The translations under genes were made by a program, and so were the position numbers. A stretch of 64,000 nucleotides of DNA from Bradyrhizobiaceae bacterium PARB1 (GTDB taxonomy: Bacteria > Pseudomonadota > Alphaproteobacteria > Rhizobiales > Xanthobacteraceae): contig NKIY01000004.1 in NCBI GenBank assembly GCA_002256345.1, forward strand, positions 79,876 to 143,875. Reading direction: 5' to 3'. Under the pieces are notes generated by a model. That model ran no database searches. It worked only from the letters and a program-made list of their open reading frames with translations, and had not been told where the DNA came from. Shown piece after piece: positions 3,505-8,037 of the stretch (position 1 is its first letter; each line of letters begins with the position of its first letter).

Positions 3505-4770
3505 ATGACCTCTGTTGCCGATCCGATCGCCGGACCTGCACATGCCGATGCGGCCAAAGCATCGTCCCACGCAACTGCACATGCGGAGGCGCTGCCCACC
3601 GTGACAGCGGTGAACGAGCGTGAACTGCGCCTCGACCTATTCCGCGGCCTCGCACTGTGGCTGATCTTCATCGATCACCTGCCGCAAAACCTGCTCACCT
3701 GGCTGACCATCCGCAATTACGGCTTCAGCGACGCCACCGAGATTTTCATTTTCATCTCCGGCTACACCGCTGCTTTCGTCTACGGCCGCGCGATGCAGGA
3801 GCAGGGCACGGTGGTCGCCAGTGCGCGCATCCTCAAGCGCGTCTGGCAAATCTATGTGGCCCACGTCTTTCTGTTCACGATCTTTCTCGCAGAAATCTCC
3901 TACGTTGCCACGCGCTTCCAGAATCCGCTCTACACGGAAGAAATGGGCATCCTCGACTTCCTCAAGGAGCCCGACGTCACCATCGTGCAGGCGCTGCTGC
4001 TGCGCTTCCGCCCGGTCAATATGGACGTGCTGCCGCTCTATATCGTGCTGATGCTGTTCCTGCCGCTTATCCTGTGGCTGATGCGACGGCGCGCCGATCT
4101 CACGCTCGGCCTGTCCGTGCTGCTCTACGCGCTGACATGGGAATTTGACCTCCACCTCACCGCTTATCCGAACGGCGCCTGGGCGTTCAATCCATTCGCC
4201 TGGCAACTGCTGTTCGTGTTTGGGGCATGGTGCGCGCTGGGCGGCGCGGTCAGGATGACGCGTATCCTGAATTCACCGATCACGCTCTGGATCTGCGTTG
4301 CCTATCTGCTAGGGGCGTTCTGGGTGACGCTGACCTGGCATATTCCGCAGATCCATCATCTGCTGCCGAAACTGCTTGAGCAGTGGATGTATCCGATCAA
4401 CAAGCCCGATCTGGACGTGCTCCGTTTTGCCCACTTCCTGGCGCTGGCGGCACTCACCGTCCGGTTCCTGCCGAGGGATTGGCCGGCGCTGAAGTCGATC
4501 TGGCTGCGACCAATGGTGCTCTGCGGCCAGCATTCGCTTGAGATTTTCTGCATAGGCGTGTTTCTAGCCTTTGCAGGTCAGTTTTTCCTGGGCGAGATCG
4601 CAGGCGGCGCAATCATGCATGGCCTGGTCAGCCTGGTTGGGATCGTCATCATGTCCGCCGCTGCCTGGGTGTTTTCATGGTACAAGCGTGTCACCGCAAA
4701 GGGCGGGGCGCGCGCCGGGAAAACATCCCAGAACACAACCGACGCCGATCTCGCAGGAGGGGGCGCATGA
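3505..4770 (+). CDS. opgC: OpgC-domain membrane protein (glucan acyl/succinyl transfer)
   Basis: A 421-residue polytopic inner-membrane protein with about ten hydrophobic segments. It opens with the OpgC signature ELRLDLFRGLALWLIFIDH followed by SDATEIFIFISGYTAAFVYG. OpgC proteins modify osmoregulated periplasmic glucans, classically with succinyl groups. The first 35 residues are Ala/His-rich and probably cytoplasmic. Its stop overlaps the next ORF by ATGA, and that ORF overlaps a third, so a membrane acyl-donor transporter and two secreted SGNH-fold proteins are made as one unit. This arrangement resembles acyltransferase/SGNH pairs that modify exported glycans. No strong ribosome site is seen before the start. 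The substrate is inferred from the family only. Confidence 0.85.
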   Translation: MTSVADPIAGPAHADAAKASSHATAHAEALPTVTAVNERELRLDLFRGLALWLIFIDHLPQNLLTWLTIRNYGFSDATEIFIFISGYTAAFVYGRAMQEQGTVVASARILKRVWQIYVAHVFLFTIFLAEISYVATRFQNPLYTEEMGILDFLKEPDVTIVQALLLRFRPVNMDVLPLYIVLMLFLPLILWLMRRRADLTLGLSVLLYALTWEFDLHLTAYPNGAWAFNPFAWQLLFVFGAWCALGGAVRMTRILNSPITLWICVAYLLGAFWVTLTWHIPQIHHLLPKLLEQWMYPINKPDLDVLRFAHFLALAALTVRFLPRDWPALKSIWLRPMVLCGQHSLEIFCIGVFLAFAGQFFLGEIAGGAIMHGLVSLVGIVIMSAAAWVFSWYKRVTAKGGARAGKTSQNTTDADLAGGGA

Positions 4771-5543
4771 TCACCTTGCTGCACGACAGAACGTCGTGGC
4801 GACGCGCGCTGCTGCTGGTCTTGCTGATGGCCGGACCGGCGCAGGCCGAGCCGCCTAAACAGACCTGCGACGTTCCCGCCTATCTTCTGACCAGCGAAAG
4901 CTCTCTGCCGAAAGTACGGGCAACCGTAAAGACTGACGGCAAGCTCAATATTCTGGTGATCGGCAGCCGCTCTGCTGTCATTGGCCTGTCCGACCAGTCG
5001 GCGGCATTTCCCAACCGCCTCCAGGCCTATCTCGCCGACAAACTGCCGGGCGTCTCGGTCAACGTCGCGCTGGAGCTGCAAGTCAAAAAGACCGCAGAGG
5101 AGATGGCCCCCGACCTGGGTAAACTGGTCGAAAGCCACAAGCCGGACCTGGTCGTCTGGCAGACTGGAACCGTCGATGCCATGCGCCAGGTGGATAGCGA
5201 CGATTTTCGCAATGCATTGGACGACGGCGTCACTGCCATGCAAAAGGCCGGAACTGACGTCATTTTAATGAACCTGCAATACAGTCCACGCACCGAGTCC
5301 ATGATTTCCGGCTCGGCCTACCTAGATAATATGCGTGTGGTGGCGCAGCAGCACGATGTTCCGCTGTTTGATCGTTTCGCCATCATGCGCCAGTGGAATG
5401 AGAATGGCGATTTCGACCTGTTCAACCCCGCGCCCGGCATGGAGCTTGCGAAGCGGGTGCATGACTGTCTCGGTCGCGCGCTATCGGCCTTTGTGATCGA
5501 AACAGCGCGTATCAAGACAGAGGATTTAAGGATTCAGCGTTAA
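4767..5543 (+). CDS. Secreted SGNH-fold protein, catalytically degenerate paralog
   Basis: A 258-residue protein with a signal peptide (RRALLLVLLMAGPAQA). The start at 4767 is preferred over the longer ORF because it overlaps the opgC stop (ATGA) and follows AGGAGG. It aligns end to end with the next gene, an SGNH hydrolase-like protein, but every catalytic block is altered. The nucleophile motif GSSS is GSRS here, GTNA (oxyanion Asn) is GTVDA, the Gly-rich block II is absent, and the C-terminal DxxH has no counterpart. It is therefore probably a non-enzymatic binding or partner protein in the periplasm. The pairing with opgC and the active paralog suggests a role in glycan acylation. Confidence 0.7.
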   Translation: MITLLHDRTSWRRALLLVLLMAGPAQAEPPKQTCDVPAYLLTSESSLPKVRATVKTDGKLNILVIGSRSAVIGLSDQSAAFPNRLQAYLADKLPGVSVNVALELQVKKTAEEMAPDLGKLVESHKPDLVVWQTGTVDAMRQVDSDDFRNALDDGVTAMQKAGTDVILMNLQYSPRTESMISGSAYLDNMRVVAQQHDVPLFDRFAIMRQWNENGDFDLFNPAPGMELAKRVHDCLGRALSAFVIETARIKTEDLRIQR

Positions 5544-6460
5544 TGAGTTTCGAAGGTACCCTGCCCCGCCTTGTTATTGTCGCTGCGCTAGCCGTCATGA
5601 CACCCGCACTCACCTCGGTGGCCCACGCCGAGGGATCGCAGGGCGCCGCGCAGGGGCAGACCGACAGCAGGGGCGTGGCCGGCAAGACGATCGACAAGGT
5701 GAAGGACGTCGCCAAGACCGCCACTGATATTCTCAGCCGTGTGCCGTGCCGTCAGCCCAAAGGCGGCATGAAGACACTCGGCGCCCTGCCCCATGTAGCT
5801 GGCAAGCTCGCTGCGCATCAGCCCGTCACCATTATCGCCTTCGGTTCGTCATCGACTCAGGGCTGGGGCTCATCCGCGCCGGAATTCACTTATCCCAATC
5901 GCCTCGCAGCGCAGCTGCACCGCGCCTATCCCGGCGCAAATATCACTGTGCTCAATCGCGGCGTCGGCGGCGAAGACGCGCCGGAGATGATGAAGCGGCT
6001 GCAGACCCAGGTGATCGACGTGAAGCCGGATCTGGTGATCTGGCAGGTCGGCACCAATGCGGTGCTGCGCAATCTCGATCCCGCCGAGACCGGCAAGATG
6101 ATCGAGGATGGCGTCGGCCGAATTCAGGCCGGTGGCGCCGACGTCGTGCTGATCGATCCGCAATACTCTCCGGCGACGACATCGAAGCCGGAAGGCACCA
6201 CCAAGATGCTGTCGCTGATGCACAAGGTGGCCGAGCTACGCAAGGTCGGCATCTTCCCGCGCTTCGAGGTGATGAAAGAGTGGCACGAAGGCCAGCAGAT
6301 GGCATTCGACGCCTTCGTCATCTCCGACGGTCTGCATATGAACGACTGGGGCTATGCCTGCTTCGCGCAATTGCTCGGCGACAACATCATCAAATCCGTC
6401 GGCCAGATCCAGATGGGGACGAACGAACCGGCCGTACAGCAGGCGCAGCGGCCGTTGTAG
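5543..6460 (+). CDS. Secreted SGNH/GDSL-type hydrolase or acyltransferase
   Basis: A 305-residue exported protein with a signal peptide (LVIVAALAVMTPALTSVAHA). After a 60-residue linker come the SGNH blocks: block I FGSSSTQG (nucleophile Ser near residue 103), block II NRGVGGE, block III VGTNAV (oxyanion Asn) and block V DGLHMND (Asp-His). It therefore looks catalytically competent. The start overlaps the stop of the preceding degenerate paralog (TAATG), making a three-gene opgC operon. The likely job is ester cleavage or transfer of an acyl group on a periplasmic glycan; the exact substrate is unknown. Confidence 0.8.
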   Translation: MSFEGTLPRLVIVAALAVMTPALTSVAHAEGSQGAAQGQTDSRGVAGKTIDKVKDVAKTATDILSRVPCRQPKGGMKTLGALPHVAGKLAAHQPVTIIAFGSSSTQGWGSSAPEFTYPNRLAAQLHRAYPGANITVLNRGVGGEDAPEMMKRLQTQVIDVKPDLVIWQVGTNAVLRNLDPAETGKMIEDGVGRIQAGGADVVLIDPQYSPATTSKPEGTTKMLSLMHKVAELRKVGIFPRFEVMKEWHEGQQMAFDAFVISDGLHMNDWGYACFAQLLGDNIIKSVGQIQMGTNEPAVQQAQRPL

Positions 6461-6587: not shown

Positions 6588-7769
6588 TTACGCCTTGGCC
6601 AGCGCCGCTTCGAAGTCCTCGATCAAATCGTCGCGATGCTCGAGGCCCGCCGAGAAGCGGATAAAGCCTTCCGTGATACCGAGCTCCAGCCGCGCTTCCA
6701 GCGACAGGCGCTGATGCGTCGTCGTCGCTGGATGTGTCACAAGGCTCTTCGCATCGCCGAGATTGTTCGAGATGCGTGCGACCTTCAGCGCATTCAGCAC
6801 GCGGAACGCAGCCTCCTTGCCGCCCTTCACCTCAAAGCCGATCAGTGTCGAGCCGGCGCGCATCTGTTTCTTCACAAGCGCCGCCTGCGGATGATCCTCG
6901 CGACCCGGATAGATCAGGCGTGACACCTTCGGATGCTGCGCCAGCACGTCGGCAACCGCCGCCGCCGTCTGCGTCTGCCGCTCGACGCGGATCGCCAATG
7001 TTTCCAGCCCTTTCACCAGCGTCCACGCATTGAACGGCGAGATCGAGGGACCGGTCTGGCGCAGATAGTTGTGAATGTGCTCGTCGATGAAATCCTTCGA
7101 CGACAGGATGATGCCGCCGAGGCAGCGACCCTGGCCGTCGATATGCTTGGTGGCCGAATAGACGACGACGTCTGCGCCGAGCGCCAGTGGGCTCTGCCAG
7201 ATCGGCGTCGCGAACACATTGTCGACGATCAACCGCGCACCGCCGGCATGGGCGATCTCGGCGATAGCGCCGATATCGAGCACGTCGAGAGTCGGGTTGG
7301 TCGGGCTTTCCAGGAACAGCGACTTGGTGTTCGGCTTCATCGCCTTCTGCCATTGGTCGAGATCAAGACCATCGACCAGCGTGAATTCGATGCCATATCG
7401 CGGCAGCAGTTCCTCGATGACGTAGCGACAGGAGCCGAACAGCGCCTTCGCAGCAACGACATGATCGCCCTGGCGCAGCGGCGCGAGGATCGCGGTGGTG
7501 ACGGCGGCCATGCCGGTAGCAGTGGCGCGCGCGGCTCCCGCGCCTTCGAGGTCGACCATGCGGTTCTCGAACATCGCGGTGTTCGGATTCGAGAAACGCG
7601 AATAGATGAAGCCGGGATCTTCGCCCTTGAACCGCGCCTCGCAGGCCTCGGCCGTCTCGTAGATGAAGCCCTGCGTCAGAAAAAGGGCTTCGGACGTCTC
7701 GTTATATTGCGAGCGCAAGGCACTGGAATGAACGAGGCGGGTTTCGGGGCGGTATGACTTCTCGGACAT
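6588..7769 (-). CDS. metZ: O-succinylhomoserine sulfhydrylase
   Basis: A 393-residue PLP-dependent Cys/Met-metabolism enzyme that makes homocysteine directly from O-succinylhomoserine and sulfide in the cytoplasm. Visible features are SRFSNPNTAMFE near residue 60, the phosphate-binding region ATATGMAAV, VDNVFATPIWQ, and the PLP lysine in YSATKHIDGQG. The start at 7769 (MSEKSYRPETRLVHSS) is chosen over the longer ORF because GGAGGTCC lies directly upstream and the extension would run into the leader hairpins. The leader carries a SAM-II riboswitch and a terminator, so transcription should fall when S-adenosylmethionine is plentiful. The assignment as MetZ rather than MetB or MetC rests on overall resemblance and the riboswitch. 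Confidence 0.9.
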   Translation of the reverse strand: MSEKSYRPETRLVHSSALRSQYNETSEALFLTQGFIYETAEACEARFKGEDPGFIYSRFSNPNTAMFENRMVDLEGAGAARATATGMAAVTTAILAPLRQGDHVVAAKALFGSCRYVIEELLPRYGIEFTLVDGLDLDQWQKAMKPNTKSLFLESPTNPTLDVLDIGAIAEIAHAGGARLIVDNVFATPIWQSPLALGADVVVYSATKHIDGQGRCLGGIILSSKDFIDEHIHNYLRQTGPSISPFNAWTLVKGLETLAIRVERQTQTAAAVADVLAQHPKVSRLIYPGREDHPQAALVKKQMRAGSTLIGFEVKGGKEAAFRVLNALKVARISNNLGDAKSLVTHPATTTHQRLSLEARLELGITEGFIRFSAGLEHRDDLIEDFEAALAKA

Positions 7770-7781
7770 GGGACCTCCAAC

Positions 7782-7802
7782 ATGCCTGCCTGCGGCAGGC
7801 AT
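7782..7802 (-). promoter_or_regulatory. Perfect hairpin next to the metZ ribosome-binding site
   Basis: ATGCCTGC-ctgcg-GCAGGCAT is an 8-bp perfect stem between the leader terminator and the GGAGGTCC ribosome site. It does not sequester the site itself but begins only about 3 nt from it, so it may set the mRNA 5' end after termination readthrough or processing. Confidence 0.45.
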
Positions 7803-7838
7803 AAAAAAACCGGCCTGGACGGACGTCCACAAGCCGGG
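7803..7838 (-). terminator. Leader terminator downstream of the SAM-II aptamer
   Basis: On the minus strand CCCGGCTTGTGGAC / GTCCAGGCCGG forms an imperfect stem followed by TTTTTTT. It lies about 30 nt after the aptamer and before metZ, as expected for riboswitch-controlled attenuation. Confidence 0.75.
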
Positions 7839-7867
7839 TTCACATGCTGGAAGGGCATGATCCGCGG

Positions 7868-7923
7868 CCTGTTTAGCGACTTATTTTACGTGGCTGCAAG
7901 CCGGCCGGCCCAAATCACCACGG
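7868..7923 (-). ncRNA. SAM-II riboswitch (metA motif)
   Basis: The minus strand reads CGTGGTGATTTG, then a G/C-rich stretch, GCTTGCAGCCACG, an A-rich spacer and AAGTCGCTAAA. These are the conserved blocks of the SAM-II aptamer in the right order: the CGTGG/CCACG P1 helix and the pseudoknot strand AAGTCGC. It lies upstream of metZ, a classic location in alphaproteobacteria. Recognised by eye, not by covariance search. Confidence 0.88.
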
Positions 7924-8037
7924 GATAACAGTGTTCCTATTCCCGCTTGCCCTTTCCGTCAAGGCGCGCTTGAAGTAGCCGGTAAAGTTGCGATTTTTCA
8001 GGGTATTGTCCCGGAAAGCCGACCGAAGGACCAGACC

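Follow-up and report, generated by a model that had tools for sequence, protein, structure and literature searches.

The window, a stretch of 64,000 nucleotides from Bradyrhizobiaceae bacterium PARB1, contains three overlapping genes on the forward strand, namely an opgC-type gene for a membrane protein and two genes for SGNH proteins that are here called S1 and S2:

3505-4770, + strand: opgC, OpgC_C/acyltransferase-3 (AT3)-type membrane protein of 421 aa, putative inner-membrane acyl donor (PF10129, 470 bits; PF01757, 37.6 bits)
4767-4770, + strand: ATGA overlap of the opgC stop and the S1 start, read from the sequence
4767-5543, + strand: S1, SGNH-fold pseudoenzyme of 258 aa, predicted to be exported, Pfam NonGDSL (PF25182, 287.5 bits)
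5541-5545, + strand: TAATG overlap of the S1 stop and the S2 start, read from the sequence
5543-6460, + strand: S2, SGNH protein of 305 aa with an intact catalytic set, predicted to be exported, putative acyltransferase or esterase (PF13472, 67.8 bits; PF25182, 181.4 bits)

Both overlaps that an earlier note on this DNA had read as coupling the three genes are present. The same 4-base ATGA overlap joins opgC and S1 in 59 of 82 loci of the family, and the 1-base TAATG overlap joins S1 and S2 in 34 loci of the same junction survey, which points to translational coupling. A promoter scan gave no signal above chance. The opgC product scores above the curated cut-off of the OpgC_C profile and matches it from end to end (positions 1-358 of 358). 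The operon differs from the AT3-SGNH fusions in that opgC, S1 and S2 are separate overlapping frames, and from the MBOAT-SGNH systems (Alg, Pat, Dlt) in that its sole membrane protein is of the OpgC_C/AT3 type by Pfam. A metZ-like gene (6588-7832, - strand) comes after S2, with a SAM_alpha riboswitch (Rfam RF00521, 82.8 bits; 7852-7931, - strand) upstream of it.

Alignment of S1 with S2 upholds the claim that S1 has lost the nucleophile Ser, the oxyanion Asn and the catalytic His. The GSSS of S2 (G101-S102-S103-S104) is GSRS in S1 (G66-S67-R68-S69), the GTNA of S2 (G170-T171-N172-A173) is GTVDA in S1 (G134-T135-V136-D137-A138), and no C-terminal DxxH stands in S1 at the position of S2 D262/H265:

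4968-4970, + strand: S1 codon R68 at the nucleophile-Ser position, aligned with S2 S103; R, G, A, T, S, F, V or L in 82 sequences
5172-5174, + strand: S1 codon V136 at the oxyanion-Asn position, aligned with S2 N172; Asn in 1 of 82
5433-5444, + strand: S1 P223-E226, aligned where S2 has D262-x-x-H265; DxxH absent in 82 of 82

The block II Gly has gone as well (S2 G140 is L104 in S1), a loss absent from the earlier note, and S1 therefore lacks all four elements of the SGNH/GDSL enzyme set (Ser I, Gly II, Asn III, DxxH V). The alpha/beta/alpha fold of the superfamily is nevertheless retained in the AlphaFold model of S1 (pLDDT 93.2, pTM 0.86), for which Foldseek returned TesA, LAE5 and Axe2 with probability 1.00. 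Both SGNH proteins exceed the NonGDSL cut-off of 80 bits, S1 by the wider margin. S1 has also kept its length, as had been noted: the catalytic domains of S1 and S2 are similar in size, and S2 is longer through an extra N-terminal region. By eye, both proteins have the signal ascribed to them, a hydrophobic N-terminal stretch followed by an AxA-type site (AQA/EPP and AHA/EGS), and both would presumably be exported to the periplasm. A PDB sequence search with S1 gave weak SGNH matches only, and a text search for NonGDSL found no paper under that name and no account of an operon role.

A survey of 150 genomes sampled from the same family detected S1 in 145 of them and in all 47 genera, with a cut-off that lets in S2-like matches in a few genomes. 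The earlier note had considered that orthologs might retain the catalytic Ser and His; they do not, as 79 of the 82 S1 sequences from family loci lack Ser, Asn and DxxH, two have Ser only, one has Asn only and none has DxxH. The three elements are likewise missing from S1 in all 80 loci of named organisms (Bradyrhizobium, Rhodopseudomonas, Nitrobacter, Tardiphaga), a set that partly overlaps with the 150-genome sample, and DxxH is also absent from S1 in 21 loci of other alphaproteobacterial families. The closest relatives of S1 are mostly from Tardiphaga, with identities of up to 88%. Mean pairwise dN/dS within the genus is 0.138 for S1, against 0.104 for opgC and 0.164 for S2, and S1 is therefore under purifying selection about as firm as that on its two neighbours. 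In one genus, two genomes (G044 and G097) have no S1 match and a third (G075, locus L063) has opgC-S1 without an adjacent S2, a pattern that is possibly loss in progress.

Column conservation in S1 follows that in S2 (r 0.64) and departs from it at the active site. Among 242 columns, the largest drops in conservation from S2 to S1 include H265 (rank 1), N138 (3), N172 (4), G140 (7) and S103 (8), while a further 25 positions are conserved in both proteins with the identical residue. Conserved S1/S2 pairs include C34/C69, C234/C273, W131/W167, Q132/Q168, Q171/Q207, R203/R240 and W210/W247, of which the cysteines likely form a disulfide. Other residues are conserved specifically in S1 (D137, S173, R175, D202, D217, F147, R190 and F216). 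The conserved residues of S1 gather at the ends of strands on the face that once held the active site, which we defined from the predicted secondary structure (22 of 41 versus 40 of 170, p 4e-4). The cleft apparently still has a use, one that does not involve the old chemistry.

Orthologs of S2 retain Ser, Asn and DxxH without exception (76 of 76) and G140 is invariant, so that the SGNH/GDSL enzyme set is complete. Foldseek matched its AlphaFold model (pLDDT 86.5) to CEX, LAE5 and AlAXEase, the closest solved structures being carbohydrate esterases and thioesterases. A live S2-like SGNH gene that lies away from opgC occurs in the same genome and in one relative (L144, L145), and its product has an unusual block II, GRNAD rather than GxGGE.

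An operon of this make-up recurs in hundreds of alphaproteobacterial genomes. The order opgC-S1-S2 has counts of 77 of 81 for the family loci and 78 of 80 for the loci of named genomes, usually within the neighbourhood hslO-apaG-[opgC-S1-S2]-metZ-dcd. About ten deep-branching loci lack hslO-apaG and metZ-dcd, and there opgC and S1 are still together, nearly always with S2; a link to the neighbouring metZ, through O-succinylhomoserine, was accordingly rejected as a neighbourhood effect. Wherever the operon lies, opgC is immediately 5' of S1 in every locus examined. In other families the S1-type gene directly follows opgC in the loci seen and S2 is adjacent in part of them only, and locus L064 has the tandem opgC-S1-opgC-S1-S2, in which the pair is doubled and S2 is single. 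As the linkage to opgC is kept where S2 is not adjacent and the pair opgC-S1 has been duplicated as such, S1 belongs first to OpgC.

Many further families of the Alphaproteobacteria have S1-type proteins, and there too Asn and DxxH have gone. Several of these proteins keep Ser, and His and Asn were therefore probably lost before Ser. In a tree of SGNH proteins built with the catalytic columns left out, the S1 proteins of the family and of the class form one clade (SH-aLRT 98). Further dead SGNH genes adjoining opgC fall outside this clade, among live enzymes (L132, L133, L135; L153; L156, L157; L136, L164). The AU test rejects a common origin for all the dead proteins (p 0.0005), with four live/dead changes on the tree, and three live/dead row pairs are set apart by well-supported branches. 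In L132, L133 and L135, opgC is followed by a dead gene from outside the S1 clade and then by a live one. Judged from this tree, dead SGNH genes beside opgC arose more than once, and the order opgC-dead-live in these three loci was reached independently of the S1 operons. Every dead SGNH protein examined is encoded directly 3' of opgC, an association that is descriptive since the loci from other families were partly fetched through OpgC and since independent pairs for setting dead state against opgC linkage across the tree were too few. The operon offers a recurrent natural experiment in how an SGNH enzyme becomes a subunit without catalysis.

OpgC has the donor motif of AT3-type proteins in TMH1 (R/K-X10-H) and looks like a working acyl donor, because R47 and H58 are invariant in all 82 OpgC sequences. 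A second feature sets the OpgC of S1 operons apart:

3919-4023, + strand: OpgC residues 139-173, TMH3-TMH4 loop, for which hydropathy and the positive-inside rule predict a periplasmic position, with N140, E145, M147, F152, A163, F168 and M173

At the strictest setting, eight positions separate OpgC of S1 operons (82 family and 20 other sequences) from 58 OpgC proteins without SGNH neighbours, and seven of the eight lie within residues 139-173 (Fisher p 2.5e-7), a contrast to which shared ancestry may contribute and for which the loop bounds were set after the positions were known. Control contrasts among groups of stand-alone OpgC placed 1 of 30 and 0 of 6 positions in this segment. Scored over the eight positions, the OpgC proteins of the family have 6-8, those of other S1 operons 4-8 and those standing alone 0-1 in 50 of 58 cases. 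A 2020 study described residues of the TMH3-4 loop whose conservation is confined to AT3-SGNH fusions and which show covariation with the SGNH domain (PMC7448272); this loop had already been connected with the docking of SGNH domains in enzymes of the OafA/OafB type. A Tyr specific to S1-linked OpgC, as a candidate acyl-Tyr carrier, was sought and not found, Y117 and Y179 being conserved in stand-alone OpgC too.

The genome encodes at least seven strong OpgC_C proteins including that of the operon, the six further paralogs lying at C26:519975, C17:343009, C11:286239, C26:776348, C12:100956 and C26:274425. A genome-wide SGNH search placed no SGNH gene beside any of these six, and no OpgG/MdoG was found in the genome. 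The name opgC, which rests on the Pfam OpgC_C assignment, should therefore be used with care. One GH17 frame elsewhere in the genome could be part of a beta-1,3/1,6-glucan pathway.

The earlier note had suggested that a membrane acyl donor, an active and an inactive SGNH protein might make up a glycan-modification machine in which the pseudoenzyme serves as a binding or scaffold subunit. Of this idea, the part that stands is that a conserved and selected operon of acyl donor, pseudoenzyme and live SGNH protein is best explained as one glycan-acylation unit; we infer the contacts among the three proteins, transfer rather than removal, the type of acyl group and the acceptor. On balance we lean, by a modest degree, towards a single periplasmic machine made up of OpgC, S1 docked on it as a non-catalytic subunit and S2 as the transferase. 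OpgC would take an acyl group from an acyl-CoA in the cytosol and carry it to the periplasmic face. S1, without a catalytic site of a known type, would dock on OpgC, probably at the TMH3-4 loop, and its retained cleft face would hold the acceptor glycan, seat S2 or do both; of S2, the Ser103 would accept the acyl group and then pass it to the sugar. The roles of S1 and S2 are drawn by analogy with known systems, in which AT3 domains hand the acyl group to the Ser of an SGNH domain and from there to the sugar, as in OatA and OafB (PMC12148441, PMC12423673), and in which the stand-alone WecH partners the soluble PatB (PMC9558356). There are also points against the machine. Most OpgC_C proteins, including the paralogs in the same genome, have no SGNH neighbour, and OpgC chemistry in general therefore needs none; the loop signature may in part mirror the common ancestry of these OpgC proteins; and S2 could strip acyl groups rather than add them.

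The strongest rival, which we still consider unlikely, is that S1 is a glycan-binding subunit whose old cleft, in the manner of a lectin, presents the periplasmic glucan to OpgC and S2 without any scaffolding. The S1-specific D137, S173, R175, D202 and D217 at the strand ends of the former active-site face, accompanied there by the shared W131, Q132, Q171 and R203, would suit such a role, and related SGNH proteins act on carbohydrates. However, opgC and S1 are tightly linked and OpgC has its loop signature, both of which speak for contact between proteins, and the non-enzymatic AlgF of the alginate system serves contacts between proteins and not the binding of the polymer (PMC10641220).

Quite unlikely, in our estimate, is a division of labour in which OpgC alone adds the acyl groups and S2 is an esterase that trims them, with S1 as a regulatory partner and the operon setting the level of substitution. 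The structures nearest to S2 agree with this, as does the stand-alone OpgC/MdoC, which is regarded as succinylating glucans unaided (PMC9558356), but OpgC of the S1 operons has a loop signature of its own, and in known AT3-SGNH systems it is the SGNH part that does the transfer (PMC7448272, PMC12148441). We give a similarly small chance to S1 being an acyl relay or gate, the old cleft of which would bind OpgC at its acylated carrier residue or loop and hand the group to S2, in a role that evolved repeatedly beside opgC; a dead enzyme would then be an obligatory component of a catalytic cycle.

That S1 works as a novel type of enzyme, with a cleft rebuilt by residues such as S69, D137, R175, R203, D217 and H232 to carry or hydrolyse an acyl group, seems very improbable. 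All 82 S1 sequences of the family have H232, position 137 is occupied by D or E throughout and S69 persists in 74 of 82, yet Tyr, Phe, Gln or Glu often occupies the H232 position in deep-branching S1 of other families and Tyr271 occupies it in S2, so that H232 is not a catalytic residue across the class and a rebuilt Ser-His enzyme acting through it is weakened; nor is any alternative Ser-His-Asp set conserved class-wide. Decay of a duplicate or an error in sequencing, for which the disappearance of every canonical catalytic motif from S1 might speak, has a negligible probability and can be ruled out, the same loss being shared by all orthologs across dozens of genera, with open frames, a dN/dS of 0.14 and invariant residues of their own.

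S1 and S2 are likely the partners still missing for a membrane enzyme that has been regarded as acting by itself. On the question of how a stand-alone acyltransferase-3 protein hands its acyl group over to a sugar, the operon gives OpgC two candidate partners, and its presence in culturable organisms such as Rhodopseudomonas, Nitrobacter and Bradyrhizobium comes with a candidate docking loop to mutate. A literature text search, which left subscription journals mostly outside, returned no paper that joins OpgC to SGNH partners like these.

Among the known systems, the OafB/OafA and OatA fusions share with the operon a ten-helix AT3-type donor with R/K-X10-H, an SGNH domain and SGNH-specific TMH3-4 residues (PMC7448272), whereas here there are three separate proteins, an OpgC_C membrane part and an extra dead SGNH protein. 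The alginate system AlgI-AlgJ-AlgX-AlgF, and with it the cellulose Wss system, likewise combines a membrane acyl donor, two SGNH-type proteins and a non-enzymatic subunit, but AlgI is an MBOAT protein, AlgJ and AlgX are circularly permuted proteins, each with a catalytic triad, and AlgF is a beta-sandwich protein rather than a dead SGNH (PMC9487903, PMC10641220). In PatA/PatB and DltB/DltD a periplasmic SGNH enzyme is also separate from the membrane donor; these differ in having an MBOAT donor, a single SGNH protein and a motif with a shuttling Tyr, placed in DltX or at the C-terminal end of the MBOAT protein (PMC12148441). OpgC of Rhodobacter sphaeroides, MdoC of Escherichia coli and the Brucella and Dickeya OpgC homologues are OpgC/AT3-type glucan succinyltransferases as well, described as standing alone without SGNH partners (PMC9558356), and a 2023 paper allows for an as yet unidentified partner of such stand-alone proteins (PMC9833829). 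In an arrangement that is apparently unreported, opgC-S1-S2 would be a variant within the known kind of system that pairs an acyl donor with SGNH proteins.
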